Shown piece by piece: positions 53,994 through 63,791 of a stretch of DNA of 64,000 nt (positions are counted from its first letter, which is position 1; each line of letters begins with the position of its first letter). Origin of the DNA: an uncultured Litoreibacter sp. (GTDB lineage: Bacteria; Pseudomonadota; Alphaproteobacteria; Rhodobacterales; Rhodobacteraceae); assembly GCA_947492995.1 (NCBI GenBank), contig CANLOU010000003.1, positions 496,001 through 560,000 on the forward strand, read 5' to 3'. The notes under the pieces are model-generated. The model was given only the letters and a program-made list of their open reading frames with translations. It did no database searches and was not told the origin of the DNA. The position numbers and the translations under genes were made by a program.

Positions 53994-55505
53994 ATGGCCA
54001 ACCCGCTTTACGACGCATTGTTCGGGCAACATCTTGAAAATGACGGGGCTTTCCTGCACCTCGCGGGCGATAAGACGCTGAGCTACAAGGCCTTTCTGGG
54101 ACTGGCCGCGCAATATGCGGGGCTGCTTGGCGATATTGGGCTCAAGCCCGGAGACCGCGTTGCGGTGCAGGTGGCGAAATCACCGCAGGCGCTGGCGGTC
54201 TACGCCGCCTGCGTGCAGGCCGGCGTGATCTTTCTGCCGCTCAACACCGCCTATACCGCCGACGAGGTCGCCTATTTCGTCAAAGACAGCGGCGCGCGGA
54301 TCGTCATCGGTGATGACGGCAAACACGCTGAGTTGCAGCCCATCGCCGCGGCGTGCAACGCCCGGCTCGAAACATTGAACGCGGACGGGTCGGGCTCGTT
54401 TTCGCGAAAGTCAGCCGCGTTCCCGACCACATTTGAAACGGTCGCACGAGACCCAGGCGATCTTGCGGCCTTCCTGTATACCTCGGGGACCACGGGCCGC
54501 TCCAAAGGGGCGATGCTCAGTCAGGACAACCTGCTGTCCAACGCGCGGGTCCTGGAGAAGGAGTGGCGGTTTACGGCATCCGACGTGCTGTTGCATGCCC
54601 TGCCGATTTTCCACACCCACGGGCTGTTCGTGGCGACAAATGTGACCCTGCTGTCAGGCAGCCAGATGATCTTCTTGCCCAAGTTTGATTTGGACGCGGT
54701 CATTGCCAATCTGCCGCGCGCCACCACGATGATGGGGGTTCCGACCTTTTACACCCGCCTGCTTGGCGACGCCCGGTTTACGCAAAGCCTTGCCGCCCAT
54801 ATGCGGTTGTTCGTGTCCGGCAGCGCGCCGCTGCTGGCAGAGACCCATGTGCAATTTGAAGACCGCACCGGGCACCGCATTCTGGAACGCTACGGGATGA
54901 CGGAAACCAACATGAACACCTCCAACCCCTATGAGGGCGAGCGCCGGGCGGGAACCGTCGGGTTCCCGCTGCCAGGGGTCGAGCTGAAAATCACCGACAG
55001 CGCCACCGGCGCCACACTGCCCCAAGGCGAGATCGGCGAGATCGAAGTGCGCGGCGCCAACGTGTTTCAGGGCTATTGGCAGATGCCCGAAAAGACCGCC
55101 GAGGAGCTGCGGCCAGACGGGTTTTTCATCACGGGCGATTTGGGGCAAATTGATGCGGATGGCTATGTGTCAATCGTTGGGCGCAACAAGGACCTGATTA
55201 TCTCGGGCGGCTACAACATCTACCCCAAGGAAATCGAGCTTTTGCTCGACGAACAGGACGGGGTGCTGGAAAGCGCAGTTGTGGGCGTGCCGCACCCCGA
55301 TTTTGGGGAAAGCGTCATTGGCGTCTTGGTGCCCCATCCCGACCAGCAGCTGGATCTGGATCACATCAAGGAATGCGTCGGCAGGTCTCTGGCGCGGTTC
55401 AAACAACCCCAAAAACTTGTGGTGCTGCCCGAACTGCCCCGCAACACGATGGGCAAAGTTCAAAAGAAAGCCCTCCGCGAGGAATTCGCATCGGCGTTTT
55501 CCTGA
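53994..55505 (+). CDS. matB: Malonyl-CoA synthetase (MatB-like acyl-CoA synthetase)
   Basis: AFLYTSGTTGRSKGAMLSQDNLLSNA; RYGMTETNMNTSNPYEGERRAGTVGFPLPGVELKI; GGYNIYPKEIE; operon with MCD. Confidence 0.9.
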   Translation: MANPLYDALFGQHLENDGAFLHLAGDKTLSYKAFLGLAAQYAGLLGDIGLKPGDRVAVQVAKSPQALAVYAACVQAGVIFLPLNTAYTADEVAYFVKDSGARIVIGDDGKHAELQPIAAACNARLETLNADGSGSFSRKSAAFPTTFETVARDPGDLAAFLYTSGTTGRSKGAMLSQDNLLSNARVLEKEWRFTASDVLLHALPIFHTHGLFVATNVTLLSGSQMIFLPKFDLDAVIANLPRATTMMGVPTFYTRLLGDARFTQSLAAHMRLFVSGSAPLLAETHVQFEDRTGHRILERYGMTETNMNTSNPYEGERRAGTVGFPLPGVELKITDSATGATLPQGEIGEIEVRGANVFQGYWQMPEKTAEELRPDGFFITGDLGQIDADGYVSIVGRNKDLIISGGYNIYPKEIELLLDEQDGVLESAVVGVPHPDFGESVIGVLVPHPDQQLDLDHIKECVGRSLARFKQPQKLVVLPELPRNTMGKVQKKALREEFASAFS

Positions 55506-55658: not shown

Positions 55659-55675
55659 TGGAGGCGAGTACCGGA
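55659..55675 (+). repeat. att direct repeat (left), TGGAGGCGAGTACCGGA
   Basis: Identical to 62931-62947, the 3' end of tRNA-Cys. Confidence 0.92.
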
Positions 55676-55736
55676 CCCGCTGCCATTTTTCTAAGCCATT
55701 GATTAACTTAGTATATCAAGTGTGAGGTTAAATTGT

Positions 55737-55751
55737 GTGTCTCACTTTGTG
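55737..55751 (+). repeat. Terminal island repeat GTGTCTCACTTTGTG (putative integrase arm site, left)
   Basis: 14/15 match, same orientation, with GTGTCCCACTTTGTG at 62871-62885. Confidence 0.55.
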
Positions 55752-56394
55752 CCGCACCTTATGGACCGAATGTGTGGTTTTGTCAAAGTATGAACTTATG
55801 ACATGCCGATGAATTCTTAACAGATATAACCATGAATATCTAAGCCGAAGTATCCTAAGTGTTTATTATATAAGAAATATATCGGCTCTAAGGTTAACCG
55901 AAAACAAATAGATACCCTAAGAAAGGTAAGAGTATTGAAGGGCGATATTCTACACGGATAACGAGAATTAGATTGAATGCAAAGTATAAGAATAAGAATT
56001 GACATCATTATGCTAAGTATATGAAAATACGTATAAATATATGGATCAGACAGATACCTGAATTCTCAAATTCATTGAATAAGCAGTAATATAGCTCAAA
56101 CAGATACCGCATTACCTCTGTCTATATGTGCGCAGTTCGGAATATCCTATATAAAACATATAGATACGGGCTTTCGAGGTGATTATATCTCAAAGCGCGT
56201 ACTTCTGCCGATCGTTTGCAAAGTCACTGTGTAGTCATGTCTTCAAGTAGTCAATTGGTTGTCGGGTCTACGAGCGCCACCAAAAGACAGGATAGACTGC
56301 GTGGTCGTGCTGAACGGCAAGGTATTGGGGAAGGTCGGGCTTCGCTTGGTAGTATATCCGACCGCGAAAAAATGTTCTGAAAATTTTTGAGCGA

Positions 56395-56658
56395 TCATTC
56401 GTCCATTGATGCAAGTTTGTGGACAATCTCAGATGCGTCGAAGTCCAGTGCCTCGCTTAGCTTAATCAACTCGACAACATCAACGCGGCGCTCGCCACTT
56501 TCAAGTCTTGCAATAAAGGATTGGTAGACCTTCATACTCTTGGCAAGTTCCACTTGTTTCAAGCCTGCCTCTGTTCGCTTTTCCACAAGAAAGCGGACCA
56601 ATGCGTCGTGTCGTTGGTCTCCAAGAGTTTTAGGCATGAAGTCCTCGCACAACTGCAT
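56395..56658 (-). CDS. XRE-family helix-turn-helix regulator
   Basis: LVEKRTEAGLKQVELAKSMKVYQSFIARLESGERRVDVVELIKLSEALDFDASEIVHKL. Confidence 0.88.
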   Translation of the reverse strand: MQLCEDFMPKTLGDQRHDALVRFLVEKRTEAGLKQVELAKSMKVYQSFIARLESGERRVDVVELIKLSEALDFDASEIVHKLASMDE

Positions 56659-56674
56659 CGGACCGATTGACTAA

Positions 56675-56704
56675 ATCTAAAATTCAGATATCTAAAATTC
56701 AGAT
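56675..56704. promoter_or_regulatory. Tandem 15-bp operator-like repeat (ATCTAAAATTCAGAT x2)
   Basis: Two exact back-to-back copies in the divergent intergenic region; each half-site pair ATCT...AGAT is an inverted repeat. Confidence 0.75.
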
Positions 56705-56722
56705 ATTTTGGAGGTACTTTAA

Positions 56723-57010
56723 GTGATCGGTGTAGTCCTGTTCATAGTTGTTGCAGCGCTCTTACTTCGGCAATGGACAATCCACAGTGGTAAAAGGTTT
56801 GTCCGCGCTGCAATGTATCTGGAAGCACTACCAAGCGTGGCATCGCCTCAAGAGGCCAACTCACTTGTGTCTGAAATATGCACCCGCAAGTCGGACCCCG
56901 AGAACGATGTATTTGTTATCCAAAGGGCAAGGGCCTTCGCCCACAACTACTTTGATGGGAAGCAACAACTTGTCGTTCAGGTTGCGCGATCAAAGGGCTT
57001 TTTGGGTTAG
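56723..57010 (+). CDS. Small N-terminally membrane-anchored protein of unknown function
   Basis: GTG start preceded by GGAGG (56710-56714); MIGVVLFIVVAALLLRQWTIHSGKRFVRAAMYLEALPSVASPQEANSLVSEICTRK... Confidence 0.6.
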   Translation: MIGVVLFIVVAALLLRQWTIHSGKRFVRAAMYLEALPSVASPQEANSLVSEICTRKSDPENDVFVIQRARAFAHNYFDGKQQLVVQVARSKGFLG

Positions 57011-57241
57011 CGCGTCGCGCACAGAAGTGGTTTGTGCGTTACGTTCATCGGATGCAGTGCGGAGTTTGATCATCATGGTTTAGCTTTCCCAACAGTGATC
57101 GGCCCATAGCTGCCGTTCTCCCACCCTCGGCAATGCTGCAATGTGGCCGATCATTGCGGACATTCGCTGCAAGCGCAAAGTTCACCTACGTCAAAAGCTT
57201 CGCCCTCAAGCGCTCGGCTTCAAATTCAGCAACCACTTTGC

Positions 57242-60200
57242 TCAATCGGCAGGATCATCATCTTCGACACTTACGCTTTCGTAGCTGGGAAAGAGTCCAT
57301 TCCAAACAAGACGTGTTCTTTTAGCACCTATTACTACATCACTTACTTTGCGGCTAAATTCGCGATCTTCTTCCTGCTTGGCAAAATTCTCCATGGAACC
57401 TGTTAGAAGATCTTTAGTGGCATCCGCCGAATGCTTGATGAAGTCCGCAACCCGCTTGCGCCCCAACTTAACAAACGCTAACAAAAGTTGACGGTTTTTC
57501 GCATCAAGCGCAGTGCTCAAGAAATGCCTTATGATGTTCTCTTTCTCAGCAGCCATGACCCTATCGCCATCTGTTACAACTCCGACAATGACATCTGGCA
57601 TTACGCGCATTGCATTTTGTAAACCTTTTGCGGTCACTGATCGAACACCCTCCCGACACTGGCGAAACAGATCAGAATGGAAGCTCTTCGGGATTGTTTG
57701 GAAGACTGCGTCAAAGTTGATTGCCGAAGACGAGACGTCAGTATTTTCATCTAGGACGTTGAGAACAAAACTCTGAAATGAAGACCTAAACCTTTCATCT
57801 GGCATGGAAATTTCTGAAAGAGCTGAATACTCAACAAGTAGGGAAACCTCATGAGAACTGGATGCTAGGTAAGAAGCCCAATCGTCTCCGTTTATAGATA
57901 GAAGCTCTTTTCGAACTAAATCGAATAGGTTCTGATAACCCTCATTGGTTGCATCTCTGATTTTTCCTAGCGCGCCTGATGGCACATCTCTCAGTTTTGT
58001 TTTGCCAACTTCTTCAGTAGTAAATCTATCTTGGAGTTGACTAATCACTCTACCAAAATCTGTACCAAGAACTCTATCGAGATAGCCAAAGTGTCCCAAT
58101 AGCGTAGGTAGCCCGATATATGGTAACGGTGGTTTTTCGAATGCTTTTCTAACCACGCCGTCAATCAAAGTGTGCGCAGTGTACTTATCGCCATCTTTAA
58201 TCCACCTTGTTACAATCTTTCGCTCTTGAGCGTGGGCTGCAATAGCACTGAGCTGCTCGTCCGATAAGTCCACTTCGCCATCGTAGAGTTGCTTAAAGCG
58301 CTCGTAACCAGCTTTTGCAGTAGTTGTCGGCGCCGCACCAGCGACACCCTTTAATGCAGGCAGTTCTTCGCCAGAAAGCTGTGTGTGCGCGAGAAATATT
58401 GCGTGGGCAACTCCTTCATCATTGTCGCTCTCTTCGAATACTTCTCCAAAACCATCGAAAAATACCGAACTGCGAAGGATTGGCGCAATGTCCAAGGATT
58501 CACGGACGTCTTTTGGTGCCTTGTTCATCAATAGAACCAGAATCTTCAACGTTCTTGAGAATTTTTCGGTTTCATGCGTTTCTGCATCTTGCAGGTTTTT
58601 AATTACTTTTTGCCCAACAAGTGACCATTGAGAACTTTTCACTGCATTGGCGTTAAGAAGCTCTGAAAATGCCTCAAATGCCAGGTGGTAGTTCTCATCA
58701 GCAAAATCGATCAATGGATTTTCGTCCGTGTCGTTTTTGGGTACAGGCATTGAAATCTTACCATGTGCTTTCAATGGAATAGCATACTCATGGGAACCGT
58801 AAGCGCAGCCAAGCAAAAAATCGGGAATACTAGGAAGAGAAACCGTCGATAATGCGCTTTCAACCATTGATAGACCGGCATCAGGTTTGAATATTTCCCT
58901 TACGTCGCTTAGGAAACTTACCCAATTGCGCCCCATTCGATAGTCCGCCGGTTCCTCAGTTGAAATACTATTCAGCGCCTTCCTCAAAATTGTACGAAGT
59001 ACGCTTGAGACCCTGTCTTCCCCACAATAACTCACCAGACTAAGGTAGTCGGAGTATTGTTCTTCGACCAACACAATTTCTTTTACCTCACTCAAGGATA
59101 GGCAAAGCCCCTCGATGATTTGGCTTCTGGCGTCCCCGTCGTGTTCCTCAAAAAGCTTTCCAAAGTTACGAATGACTTGACCTAGCTCGCCAGAGCTTGA
59201 CCATATTCTCTGGCTATTCGCTATCACTTCGCCAACTCTCAATTCAAAGCCTTTTGATTTCGAAAGAGCTATCAACTCGTCCGCAGAACTGGCCTCGGCG
59301 GCACTTAAAATTCTGCTGTCCAAAAGCAGTTCAAGCGCAAGATCGCTATCTACATTGTACAACAGCGCTGCTAGGTTTTCTTCGAGCTGCGTGTCAGGAG
59401 CCAAACGGCGGATTCTCGAATCCAAGAACTCTTCGTCTGTCAAAACGTATGGGTCGTCTTCAATCGCCTCACGAAAGCAGATGAACACAGCGACAGTCGT
59501 AAGATCGTATGTTCCGAGGTGCATTTCGAACAAGCCAGTCAACTCGTTAATGAATGCAATGATCTGGCGCGGAGTAAATTGTTTGTTTCGAGCTCCAAAG
59601 TGAGAATTAAAAATCAAATAGCAACGAAAAAGTTCATCCGCATCATTGTAGTTGGGCAACGCTTCAGCAATTTTGCTTTCAAAGAAAGCGCGCGAGTTTG
59701 ACATAACTGGCGGAGCAACATGCAATATCTCGTCAAACGTCTTTGATAGTAGCTCCCTTCGGACGAATACTCCTTCGTTGTCTATATTTCCATCATCGTC
59801 AAAGGCATTTGTTGGCAAGATATGAGCGCGATCATAGGGGACAATTGCTGTAATTTCCGAGTTTTTTTTAGCGTTAGAAGCCGTGCCGTTCTTAGTGAAA
59901 ATCGAGCGTACAGCGGACCAATAGTCATCTAGGTCCTCTTTTGGAATTCGGTCTATGTTATCTAGAACCAGAACGATCTTGTTTTTTGGACCTTGAATTG
60001 TTGTTAAAATCTCTGTCAACGTTTCTTGGAACTCAAAGTCGTTCGGGTCTACCTCTCGGATGTGTTGGGTAACTTCTTGGCTCTCGTATTGCTTGGCACT
60101 GATCAAGAGAGTTCGTGACAGAGAGGACCTAAACGATGGGTCTTTGTCACTGCTTTTAGCATACTTAAGGAGGGCTCGCAGTAGCGTTGCAACTAAAAAA

Positions 60201-60757
60201 AAGTATAAACAGATCATAGGACCGGATTTTAGGAAGACTACTGCAGGATCATCAAAAACCTTCTTAGCCCAAAAGTAGAATATCGGTAAGAAAGGAAGGA
60301 CCACTAGAACCGCAACACCATACCAATCTAGCATTGGGTTACTGTCGGTGGTCAGATGTTTTGTCTTTCCCTTTACCTTTTGCTCAATCAACTTGAGCTT
60401 GTCTTTTTTCTTAGGAAACTCAGAAAGTGACCAAGACACGAGATGTTCAAGAAATGTTCGCCGGAAAGCTGTGCCTTGGGACTTCCATATGTCAAATGTA
60501 AAGAAGCTGAAACGGGTCGAAGTTCCCTGATCCTGGTCGACAAGTTGCTTCTCCGCCATCTCGACGACACTTGACTTACCGCTTCCCCACGCACCTTCCA
60601 ACCCAATCGCACGATCTTCGGATTCAAATTCTGCGATGGCATCGGCTAATGCTAAAGCCGTTTTGTGATGTCCCTTACCATCAAAAAGATCTTTCTTAAT
60701 TGGCGCGTCGATCAATATCTTACGTTTAAATACTTGCTTATCGCCCAACGCTTTCAC
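57242..60757 (-). CDS. KAP-family P-loop NTPase, 1171 aa, with transmembrane segments
   Basis: Walker A GLEGAWGSGKSSVVEMAEK, Walker B-like KIVLVLDNIDRIPKEDL, inserted hydrophobic pair (WYGVAVLVVLPFLPIFYFWAKKVF; GPMICLYFFLVATLLRALL), the KAP layout. Confidence 0.85.
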   Translation of the reverse strand: MKALGDKQVFKRKILIDAPIKKDLFDGKGHHKTALALADAIAEFESEDRAIGLEGAWGSGKSSVVEMAEKQLVDQDQGTSTRFSFFTFDIWKSQGTAFRRTFLEHLVSWSLSEFPKKKDKLKLIEQKVKGKTKHLTTDSNPMLDWYGVAVLVVLPFLPIFYFWAKKVFDDPAVVFLKSGPMICLYFFLVATLLRALLKYAKSSDKDPSFRSSLSRTLLISAKQYESQEVTQHIREVDPNDFEFQETLTEILTTIQGPKNKIVLVLDNIDRIPKEDLDDYWSAVRSIFTKNGTASNAKKNSEITAIVPYDRAHILPTNAFDDDGNIDNEGVFVRRELLSKTFDEILHVAPPVMSNSRAFFESKIAEALPNYNDADELFRCYLIFNSHFGARNKQFTPRQIIAFINELTGLFEMHLGTYDLTTVAVFICFREAIEDDPYVLTDEEFLDSRIRRLAPDTQLEENLAALLYNVDSDLALELLLDSRILSAAEASSADELIALSKSKGFELRVGEVIANSQRIWSSSGELGQVIRNFGKLFEEHDGDARSQIIEGLCLSLSEVKEIVLVEEQYSDYLSLVSYCGEDRVSSVLRTILRKALNSISTEEPADYRMGRNWVSFLSDVREIFKPDAGLSMVESALSTVSLPSIPDFLLGCAYGSHEYAIPLKAHGKISMPVPKNDTDENPLIDFADENYHLAFEAFSELLNANAVKSSQWSLVGQKVIKNLQDAETHETEKFSRTLKILVLLMNKAPKDVRESLDIAPILRSSVFFDGFGEVFEESDNDEGVAHAIFLAHTQLSGEELPALKGVAGAAPTTTAKAGYERFKQLYDGEVDLSDEQLSAIAAHAQERKIVTRWIKDGDKYTAHTLIDGVVRKAFEKPPLPYIGLPTLLGHFGYLDRVLGTDFGRVISQLQDRFTTEEVGKTKLRDVPSGALGKIRDATNEGYQNLFDLVRKELLSINGDDWASYLASSSHEVSLLVEYSALSEISMPDERFRSSFQSFVLNVLDENTDVSSSAINFDAVFQTIPKSFHSDLFRQCREGVRSVTAKGLQNAMRVMPDVIVGVVTDGDRVMAAEKENIIRHFLSTALDAKNRQLLLAFVKLGRKRVADFIKHSADATKDLLTGSMENFAKQEEDREFSRKVSDVVIGAKRTRLVWNGLFPSYESVSVEDDDPAD

Positions 60758-61291
60758 CTCGAAATCAAGAATGTAACCTACCTTTTACGAGTAACCCTTA
60801 AAGTTGTTTATCACAATGCTGTTCAACTCGATACAATGGGCATCCCAGCGCATATTATCCTTTATGTCAGCAACACGGTCATTGTTTTCGATATGCGCCA
60901 GTGAGCAGTTGTAAGTGCGGCGGTTGTCCGAAGAATTCCTACCTACCTACACATTTGCTACTCAGCCTCGGAAAGAAGAGGTTGAACCCTACCCTCACCA
61001 AAGCGGGTCGCGAGGTAATGGTGAAAGCCGTTTTGGGTAGGTCCATACCGTTCAACGAGGCGACCGCACATAATGTTTATGTTGAAGGTCCGCTTTTTCC
61101 ATGCCTAATCTGAAGCTTCATTCCTGCAGCGAAAGTCTCCTTCCCGCCCCGCACCACGATAGTAAAGTCATTTTATCAAAGTTTGTTCGTCACGTGTGGA
61201 AGGCTCGTCGTAGATGAAAATTGGCACTTATGCTCCAAAACCAGCTTTCGAGAACTCCTACCAACTAAGCTGCAGCCTATGGTCAGCATTT

Positions 61292-62863
61292 TCATGCCTC
61301 GAAGTGATCGACCGCTTCCTTCAATTGAGCGAGTGTGTAGCCTTCTTTGAAATATGAAGCCTGAGTCACCCCTTCCTGAGCATGGCCGACCAGACCTTTT
61401 ATAACAGGCTCTGCTACGTTTGCTTGCGCCAGTCTGGTAATCATTGTGTGTCGGAAACTGTGGAAGACAAGAGATGGTTCTTTTAGTCCAAGCTTGGGTA
61501 AGAAGGTCTCGTTGCACCAACGGCCTAGGCTACGGCCATACCCTCCGTTTGCATTGAAGTTGTAGTCCGAGAATAAGCGGTTATTACTCCTCTGGCTTTC
61601 AACAAATTTAAGAAAACCCAAGTTGATCATCTCACTGTGGAGGGGAACTTTACGTCTACTCGCATCGGCCTTCACACGCTTCATGCCGTTGCCTTCGTCG
61701 GTAATGTTCAGAAACCATATACTGTCTTCGCATTGAACGTCTGCAGTTTCGAGTTGGCAGATTTCGTTTAACCTTGCTCCAGTGAATAGTCCCAAGAGTG
61801 AGGCCCACTTGTTACTTTCCTTTCGCACAAGGCCGGAGGGGTTCTGGGTCAGCTCATTGAAGATCAACGCCGTTTGCTCCTTTGAGAACGGTTTTCGCTC
61901 CGTTGCAGCATTCTTGGCCTTTGGTACTTTCATGCCCTCAAACAACTTGTGTGGTGCGTGGCCGTGCCGCTCTGACCAGTCGAAGAACCGACGAAAAGTG
62001 TCGATGTGGCTGTTGATGGTCTTGGGCGATATCCTCCTGTGACCTTTCACTTTGACTGCTTCTGACAAGGACAAAGCTTTCAATGCAGGTTTGGTGTTTC
62101 GGCTTGCAGGTAGAGCCTGCAGTACCTTTTTGACCTCGCTTGCGTCTTGCTTGGAGATCGCTTCCAAAAGGCGCTCTGAACCAAAATACTCGACAAGGAT
62201 ATTAAGATAAGCCCGGACCTGCTTTCTGGTCTTTTCTGGCCACTGACGGGAGTGCTCGTCTATGAAGTCATCGATGGCGCGACCCAGCGGCGCAGAGGCG
62301 GGCGGAGAGGGCGCAATCGTTACGGCAGGCGCATCGTCGTAGGAATAGTGCTCAAGGCGCTCAGCGGCCTTTAAAACGGCCCGCAGCATATCCCGGCGAC
62401 CTTTGCGAAGCTCTTGTTGCATCGCTGGCTGACTATCGCGCCAATCCTGAGCCGAAATTCCAGATTTTCGTATAAACCGACGCACCTTAAGGTATTGATT
62501 GGTATCGCGCTCATGAGTGAGATGATCTTCATGGTCCAGCATCTCACAGCGCACGTCTTCCAATGCGTTCTGAGTGAGGCCGCGAGTGTCTAACCAGTGA
62601 AGGTACTGCTGAAGTTGAGCCTTGAAGTAGGCCGTAACCATCTCCCGAATTTCGTTTCTCTTGTAGGACGTCAAGTCATTGTTATCCCTCATTACTCGCC
62701 CACAGGATGCAAGATGTCTGGCAAGATCACCAGCGCGATCTGGGCATCGTGTTCGAAGGGATAACTTGATTGTTTGTCGGGTTTGGCCTTCAATCGTCGG
62801 AAGTGGCCAACGGAAGTAATAAACTCCATGCCTTGAAGGGCTTAGATAAGATGACAGCATCAT
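61292..62863 (-). CDS. Tyrosine-type site-specific recombinase/integrase
   Basis: GARLNEICQL (Arg box), LVFHSFRHTMITRLAQ (HxxR), LVGHAQEGVTQASYFKEG (H...Y); adjacent to tRNA-Cys. Confidence 0.93.
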   Translation of the reverse strand: MMLSSYLSPSRHGVYYFRWPLPTIEGQTRQTIKLSLRTRCPDRAGDLARHLASCGRVMRDNNDLTSYKRNEIREMVTAYFKAQLQQYLHWLDTRGLTQNALEDVRCEMLDHEDHLTHERDTNQYLKVRRFIRKSGISAQDWRDSQPAMQQELRKGRRDMLRAVLKAAERLEHYSYDDAPAVTIAPSPPASAPLGRAIDDFIDEHSRQWPEKTRKQVRAYLNILVEYFGSERLLEAISKQDASEVKKVLQALPASRNTKPALKALSLSEAVKVKGHRRISPKTINSHIDTFRRFFDWSERHGHAPHKLFEGMKVPKAKNAATERKPFSKEQTALIFNELTQNPSGLVRKESNKWASLLGLFTGARLNEICQLETADVQCEDSIWFLNITDEGNGMKRVKADASRRKVPLHSEMINLGFLKFVESQRSNNRLFSDYNFNANGGYGRSLGRWCNETFLPKLGLKEPSLVFHSFRHTMITRLAQANVAEPVIKGLVGHAQEGVTQASYFKEGYTLAQLKEAVDHFEA

Positions 62864-62870
62864 AGGTCAT

Positions 62871-62885
62871 GTGTCCCACTTTGTG
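62871..62885 (+). repeat. Terminal island repeat GTGTCCCACTTTGTG (putative integrase arm site, right)
   Basis: 14/15 match with 55737-55751. Confidence 0.55.
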
Positions 62886-62930
62886 TCACACTTGACGTAT
62901 TGAAAGCTAAGTTGCTGATTTAGAATAAAA

Positions 62931-63004
62931 TGGAGGCGAGTACCGGAATCGAACCGGTGTACACGGATTTGCAATCCGCTGCGTAACCACTCCGCCAACT
63001 CGCC
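62931..63004 (-). tRNA. tRNA-Cys (GCA)
   Basis: Reverse complement GGCGAGTTGGCGGAGTGGTTACGCAGCGGATTGCAAATCCGTGTACACCGGTTCGAATCCGGTACTCGCCTCCA; acceptor stem, T-loop GGTTCGAATCC, anticodon loop TTGCAAA, encoded CCA. Confidence 0.95.
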
Positions 63005-63137: not shown

Positions 63138-63791
63138 ATGACTGACTTTGCCACAAACCGCACCATGATGGTGGACACACAGGTCCGCCCCTCTGATGTG
63201 ACCAAATTTCCGATCATCGACGCGATGTTGACGATCCGCAAAGAAGCGTTCGTGCCGCCGTCGCGGCGCGACGTGGCTTACGTGGATGCCAATATCAAGC
63301 TGGGCGGCAATCGGGTGATCCTTGAGGCGCGCACGCTGGCCAAGATGCTGGACGCGCTGGATGTGCAGCAGTCTGAGATGGTGCTGAACGTGGGCGCGGG
63401 GCTGGGATATACCGCCGCGATCCTGTCGCGGATGTGCGAGGCCGTGATTGCGGTCGAGGAAGACGAGGCGCTGGCGTCAGAGGCGGAAAGCAACCTGTCG
63501 GACCAAGACGTCGACAATGTGGTGGTGATCGAGGGCCCGCTTGCGTCGGGCGCGGCCAAGCATGGCCCATACGACTCGATCCTGATCGAAGGCGCGGTGG
63601 AGCAGGTGCCAGCGGCCTTGACCGACCAACTTAAAGATGGCGGTCGTATCGCTGCAGTGTTTGCCAAGGGCGTGCTGGGTGAATGCCGCATCGGCTACAA
63701 AATAGACGGGCAGGTCAGCTGGCGGCTGGCCTTCAACGCAGGCGCACCGGTTTTGCCCGGGTTCGAAGCCGAAAAGGCATTTGCGCTTTAA
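63138..63791 (+). CDS. Protein-L-isoaspartate O-methyltransferase family protein
   Basis: [50 protein letters not shown]...[18 protein letters not shown]. Confidence 0.9.

Follow-up and report, generated by a model that had tools for sequence, protein, structure and literature searches.

In the window analysed in this work (64,000 nucleotides of an uncultured Litoreibacter sp., contig CANLOU010000003.1, positions 496,001 to 560,000), a compact integrative element was found at the 3' end of a tRNA-Cys gene. Its main cargo is a large KAP-family P-loop NTPase, probably an anti-phage protein. The features of the element and its host flanks are given below by position in the window and strand ("." for none); G and L numbers denote the genomes and loci compared.

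53994..55505, +, host flank: AMP-binding (MatB-like) ligase (PF00501); in G008 (L051) the same gene adjoins another tRNA-Cys island
55659..62947,., whole integrative element: 7,272 bp from core copy to core copy (exact cores, GC drop, shared termini)
55659..55675, +, distal attachment (att) site, a copy of the tRNA-Cys 3' end (exact 17-bp core; distal end matching L062 and L093-L098)
55736..55770, +, probable integrase arm site, distal side, TGTGTCTCACTTTGTG... (repeat with 62870-62904; kept in the eight-element terminal alignment; putative function)
56395..56658, -, XRE-family regulator, 87 amino acids (aa), backbone gene (HTH_3, E 4.5e-10)
56675..56704,., tandem 15-bp near-palindromes ATCTAAAATTCAGAT, probable XRE operator (putative function)
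56723..57010, +, small protein with one N-terminal transmembrane (TM) helix, 95 aa, backbone gene (hydropathy; homologues in other elements)
57242..60757, -, KAP-family P-loop NTPase, 1,171 aa, cargo (PF07693, E 1e-16, 61.5 bits against a cut-off of 20)
61292..62863, -, tyrosine integrase, 523 aa (PF00589, E 2.6e-11; transcription directed away from the tRNA)
62870..62904, +, probable integrase arm site, tRNA side (repeat with 55736-55770; kept in the eight-element terminal alignment; putative function)
62931..62947, +, tRNA-side att site within the tRNA-Cys 3' end (ARAGORN tRNA call, exact core)
62931..63004, -, tRNA-Cys (GCA), intact after insertion (ARAGORN; Rfam RF00005, 65.2 bits)
63138..63791, +, host flank: protein-L-isoaspartate O-methyltransferase (pcm), adjoining tRNA-Cys in the genus (PF01135)

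The 17-bp direct repeat TGGAGGCGAGTACCGGA was present as exact copies at 55659-55675 and 62931-62947. The second of these forms the 3' terminus, CCA included, of tRNA-Cys(GCA), which occupies 62931-63004 on the minus strand. No further copy was found in the 64-kb window with up to 3 mismatches allowed, two matches were reached in none of 100 shuffles, and the exact 17-mer occurred only twice in the 3.84-Mb genome. GC content dropped from about 0.61 outside to 0.42-0.53 between the cores and recovered beyond them. An imperfect 35-bp direct repeat (TGTGTCYCACTTTGTG...) lies just inside both ends, at 55736 and 62870, and its two copies are the probable arm sites of the integrase. The initial annotation, which had described a tRNA-Cys integrase island holding an integrase, an XRE regulator, a small TM protein and the KAP NTPase as main cargo, was borne out in its 17-bp cores, tRNA, integrase and GC drop as well as in its gene set, the 1,171-aa reading frame being intact. 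The start of pcm was placed at 63138, not 63009, from its homologues. The AT-rich stretch at 55676-56394, some 700 bp that separate the XRE gene from the distal att site, held no convincing gene; an Rfam scan of the island found the tRNA alone, with no match in this interval, and promoter and terminator scans gave chance-level results.

The element belongs to a family of compact integrative elements, each with its own tyrosine integrase for site-specific insertion in the 3' end of tRNA-Cys. Seven complete elements (L062 and L093-L098) had both termini in common with it; these family elements measured 5.6-14.5 kb between cores and came from the same bacterial family, other genera included. In reverse complement, the distal end of the window's element (AGAAAAATGGCAGCGGG|TCCGGTACTCGCCTCCA) matched the distal ends of all seven, and the distal sequence AGAAAAATGGYRGCGGG|TCCGGTACTCGCCTCCA showed few changes among them. 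The identity of the two core copies ends at 17 bp because the distal end is element sequence, conserved in the seven others. L094 had TCCGGC in its tRNA and likewise in its distal copy. The window's element showed the arrangement of the family: an integrase gene 40-70 bp from the tRNA-Cys 3' end, an exact distal core and the conserved termini. Relatives of the integrase (E<=1e-25) were found in 44 of 397 genomes of the bacterial family. Those of 60-69% identity, in other genera, adjoined tRNA-Cys wherever the tRNA was readable, and more distant ones (about 40-50% identity) lay at tRNA-Ser or tRNA-Ala. Neither the integrase nor the KAP protein was found in the 20 other genomes of the genus. No prior description of the family was found in the open-access literature, most subscription papers lying outside the coverage; the family is newly delimited here, and the exchange of its cargo is a new result.

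The cargo sits between the integrase and the distal end and is swapped among family elements. “Restriction-modification” (RM) genes were present in 5 of the 7 other complete elements with the same integrase: type III RM in L062 (MTase_III, E 7e-151, and ResIII), type I RM-like genes in L094 (MTase_I, E 0; specificity subunit, E 1e-41), homologous type I RM-like genes in L095 (M subunits 80% identical to those of L094), type II RM together with Vsr in L096 (MTase_II, E 1e-143; REase_II, E 3e-76), and a type II methyltransferase in L093 (E 6e-94), whose neighbours were unrecognised.

The same chromosomal site was occupied by other islands in the genus, where tRNA-Cys beside pcm was a recurrent arrangement. 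A second copy of the tRNA-Cys 3' end was found in seven other genomes of the genus; in one of them, G008, the MatB-side gene cluster was parted from tRNA-Cys by a different island. These islands shared the att core and the chromosomal site with the window's element but differed from it in their cargo and in their integrases, which were unrelated or distantly related. Known defence genes were carried by 6 of the 7: a retron I-C RT-Toprim in G008 (E 8e-171), PARIS AriAB in G017 (E 1e-195), GmrSD/Orf5/HEC-06 in G001 (E 4e-166), type II RM genes in G018, BREX in the 52-kb interval of G007 (BrxC, E 0; PglX; PglZ, E 0; BrxL, E 1e-291) and Hma in the 52-kb interval of G005 (HmaB, E 0; HmaC, E 7e-288). 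No recognisable defence was detected in the island of G014, of which one protein was scanned. The same scan applied to ten host flank proteins returned no system-specific match, pcm alone matching a generic methyltransferase model. The tRNA-Cys site is a defence hotspot in the genus. PglX of the G007 island (L059:2883-6655) was present as two open reading frames (ORFs; 629 and 628 aa) matching consecutive halves of one PglX model.

The initial annotation had also expected relatives without the island to show one uninterrupted tRNA-Cys 3' end. A single core copy was indeed found in several genomes of the genus, for example G016 and G019, as expected for an unoccupied site, but in these the flanking genes differed from those of the window. 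An unoccupied tRNA-Cys joined directly to matB, with the exact flanks of the window, was not found in the genus genomes.

The PF07693 domain of the KAP protein spans residues 32-292, with Walker A at about 55-62 and Walker B (VLDNIDR) at 264-270. Two TM helices (about 145-167 and 179-201, from hydropathy and an AlphaFold2 model) lie between the two motifs. The protein thus showed a domain above the curated cut-off, both Walker motifs and TM segments within the domain. It was reportedly this insertion of TM helices in the P-loop domain that brought the KAP family to notice (Aravind et al. 2004). After the P-loop domain, the model was all-helical, forming an alpha-solenoid at about 350-1155 (predicted local distance difference test score 76.9, predicted template-modelling (pTM) score 0.51). 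Walker A, Walker B and other motifs were invariant in 17 relatives. Residues 1-516 averaged 50% identity to nine relatives and residues 517-1171 only 25%, as would be expected of a sensor region engaged in an arms race. A PDB sequence search with the protein returned P-loop or chance matches only.

The KAP gene was rare and sporadic: at the thresholds used, and with the window's own genome counted in, it was found in 1 of 21 genomes of the genus, 3 of 397 of the family and 2 of 385 of the class. Full-length relatives occurred in Palleronia, Ruegeria, Shimia, Amylibacter, Rhizobium plasmids and metagenome-assembled genomes, and none was found in the phage collection. In Ruegeria (L003) the KAP gene comes first in a tRNA-Lys island of 8.8 kb, which has a separate integrase of its own and ends in an att copy that is imperfect. 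Other relatives were near AbiJ/Abi_C (L007, on the same contig as L014) or GmrSD (L013). No common partner gene was found for the relatives, except for one 178-aa ORF present in both L004 and L008. The Rhizobium gallicum homologue (L013:9995-13479) was present as two ORFs of 622 and 548 aa. In Amylibacter (L009:7949-16327) the KAP gene had a HATPase gene (620 aa) on one side and a TrwB/HerA-like gene (709 aa) on the other; a HATPase gene was also present in the tRNA-Cys element L103.

The two small genes belong to the element backbone. XRE homologues were found in the KAP-free elements L092 (76% identity) and L095 (72%) and, more distant, in L093, L099 and L062. A homologue of the TM protein (37% identical) was present in the G055 element L054/L062 and in L099, divergent from an XRE gene in each case, and its homologues accompanied type III RM or metabolic genes. 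The 95-aa ORF had no Pfam family match; it is probably real, because its GTG start is preceded by a Shine-Dalgarno-like GGAGG and a homologue is present in another element. In the window, and likewise in L092 and L095, tandem sites resembling ATCTAAAATTCAGAT lay 5' of the XRE gene. The operator-like repeats of the window were found between the XRE and TM genes only, with none near the KAP start. The targets of the regulator are most likely its own gene and the divergent TM gene, and not the KAP gene. Since both recur with other cargo, the regulator and the TM protein are parts of the element and not partners of the KAP protein.

Several known systems resemble parts of this locus. Tmn is a single-gene KAP NTPase defence with two TM domains (PMC11846954, citing Gao et al. 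2020), active against T2, P1, phiVi and phiX (PMC11846954). The KAP protein of the window answers to that description, being likewise a single-gene P-loop NTPase with two TM segments in the NTPase domain, and Tmn is the closest known kind to it, the two having been compared by description only. It differs in belonging to a family known here from Alphaproteobacteria and in its long divergent C-terminal solenoid, and no family named Tmn was among its PADLOC or NCBIfam matches. The proposal of an undescribed system holds in part only, because Tmn already represents this kind, a KAP NTPase with two TM segments that defends as a single gene (PMC11846954). QatA of the qatABCD system (PMC13279940) and PifA of the F plasmid share with the protein the KAP P-loop domain, with local hidden Markov model matches around the P-loop. 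Membership of Qat was rejected: the island lacks qatB, qatC and qatD, none of the corresponding proteins was found in it, and the QatA NCBIfam model scored 31.7 bits against a cut-off of 600. PifA was rejected as well, the best stretch covering positions 6-81 of the 720 in the model.

The KAP NTPase is likely a stand-alone anti-phage cargo in the swap slot of the tRNA-Cys element family. Defence best explains the gene because the other occupants of its slot and att site are mostly known defence genes: recognised defence genes were found in 11 of 14 other tRNA-Cys occupants (genus islands and family elements together), a small sample gathered by hand, in which methyltransferases score readily in PADLOC. 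These occupants support a defensive role of the KAP protein indirectly but strongly. The initial annotation thus stands as regards a mobile element with a probably defensive cargo, now on the evidence of the occupants of the slot and att site elsewhere, but not as regards its three-gene cassette. The pair of TM helices within the P-loop domain would anchor the protein in the inner membrane, and its rapidly diverging C-terminal alpha-solenoid may recognise a phage product or a change induced by infection. Purified QatA, which is also a KAP protein, forms heptamers or octamers (PMC13279940). In the KAP protein, NTP binding or hydrolysis together with oligomerisation of the conserved core would be the trigger step, leading to a membrane-located response that would halt phage replication. 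The element itself would move by its own tyrosine integrase, leaving tRNA-Cys intact.

Several points weigh against this interpretation. No recognised defence genes were found in L097, and L098 (L098:2747-14925), which is 14.5 kb long and shares the integrase and termini, carried cyd-like respiratory and regulator genes as judged from ORF reading alone; the slot is therefore not reserved for defence. KAP NTPases are not exclusively defensive, and the sensor and effector roles assigned to the protein are inferred ones. The C-terminal divergence could also reflect relaxed constraint. The low pTM weakens the structural reading, and a Foldseek search with the model returned generic HEAT/ARM solenoids and weak matches to RdrA, with TM-scores of 0.1-0.2 that were not informative.

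Four other explanations were considered for the KAP gene. A role in metabolism or stress, with the KAP protein as an accessory NTPase of the envelope or of signalling and its gene as neutral or niche cargo, would agree with the diversity of KAP proteins and with the respiratory genes of the sibling element L098; the predominance of recognised defence among the other tRNA-Cys islands and the AbiJ and GmrSD genes near some KAP relatives make it unlikely. Less likely again is a factor for maintenance or transfer of the element, acting in segregation, addiction or exploitation of a helper phage and not in host defence. The KAP gene is the sole large gene of the element, which has no other recognised transfer genes, but it is absent from all seven of the other complete elements that share the integrase and termini, so that the element does not need it, and KAP relatives exist beyond this element family (the tRNA-Lys island, plasmids and other loci). 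The cassette of the initial annotation, in which the XRE regulator, the small TM protein and the KAP NTPase would form one defence system under XRE control, draws on the adjacency of the three genes in the island and on an unrelated Enterobacter KAP gene that also lies near a divergent HTH gene. It is very improbable: the regulator and TM protein were found with other cargo, operator copies were not found near the KAP start, the KAP gene is transcribed from its own distal end, and the search for the cassette at other integration sites detected no XRE or TM homologue near any other KAP gene (tblastn, E<=0.05).

A divergent Tmn, with the KAP protein as a direct orthologue of TmnA, is a more serious candidate, though on balance a doubtful one. 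Both answer to one description, a KAP NTPase encoded by a single gene and bearing two unusual TM domains (PMC11846954), and hhalign showed homology (probability 99.6%) over residues 15-516 between this KAP family and enterobacterial KAP proteins of about 1,090 aa, which may or may not be TmnA. Their alignment is confined to that region, their identity is about 15%, and the C-terminal 650 residues have no alignment to them. It is proposed only tentatively that the KAP protein is the first member of a defence family separate from Tmn, Qat and PifA, in which a single gene encodes an NTPase anchored in the membrane, with a variable alpha-solenoid that senses infection, and which is spread by undescribed minimal tRNA-Cys elements that swap defence cargo. 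Returning to stand-alone defence, the preferred explanation, the KAP gene of this island is probably a new cargo of the defence type, with a predicted anti-phage function, and the small tRNA-Cys elements to which its carrier belongs are a family newly delimited here.

As vehicles, the tRNA-Cys elements are comparable to the I23/I44/I55-type genomic islands and phage defence elements, which measure about 20-70 kb and target tmRNA (Zhao et al. 2025, PMC12595487). Islands of the I55 type, as defined there, lie downstream of tmRNA and have intY and alpA or the 23-bp end TTCAGATTACCCCGGCTCCACCA (PMC12595487). Both kinds have a site at a tRNA or tmRNA 3' end, short direct repeats, a tyrosine integrase, a conserved distal end sequence and defence cargo (putative for the KAP protein of the window) without transfer genes. 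The tRNA-Cys elements differ in their smaller size (5.6-14.5 kb), in having no recognised AlpA, RadC or YqaJ, in their XRE, TM and 470-aa backbone genes and in a host group unmentioned in PMC12595487. Membership of the I55 type was rejected for the window's element, its site being tRNA-Cys and AlpA being absent among the island ORFs. With the tRNA-Cys elements there would be two clear cases, from different bacterial classes, of tiny islands that move immune systems and have no transfer genes. The integrase combined with AGAAAAATGGYRGCGGGTCCGG would provide a search handle in Rhodobacteraceae genomes, and the integrase combined with the two conserved ends is a precise and reusable way to locate every element of the family. 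Because the slot is delimited to the base and holds mostly defence, each unrecognised cargo gene, among them those of the KAP NTPase and of a recurrent protein of about 470 aa, is a focused candidate.

The recurrent protein (463-493 aa) had no Pfam or PADLOC match in the members scanned (L093 and L094). It was 32-70% identical between elements and was present in five tRNA-Cys elements with differing cargo, at L094:2617-4068, L095:4056-5468, L097:15332-16723, L103:4165-5646 and L093:7134-8576.

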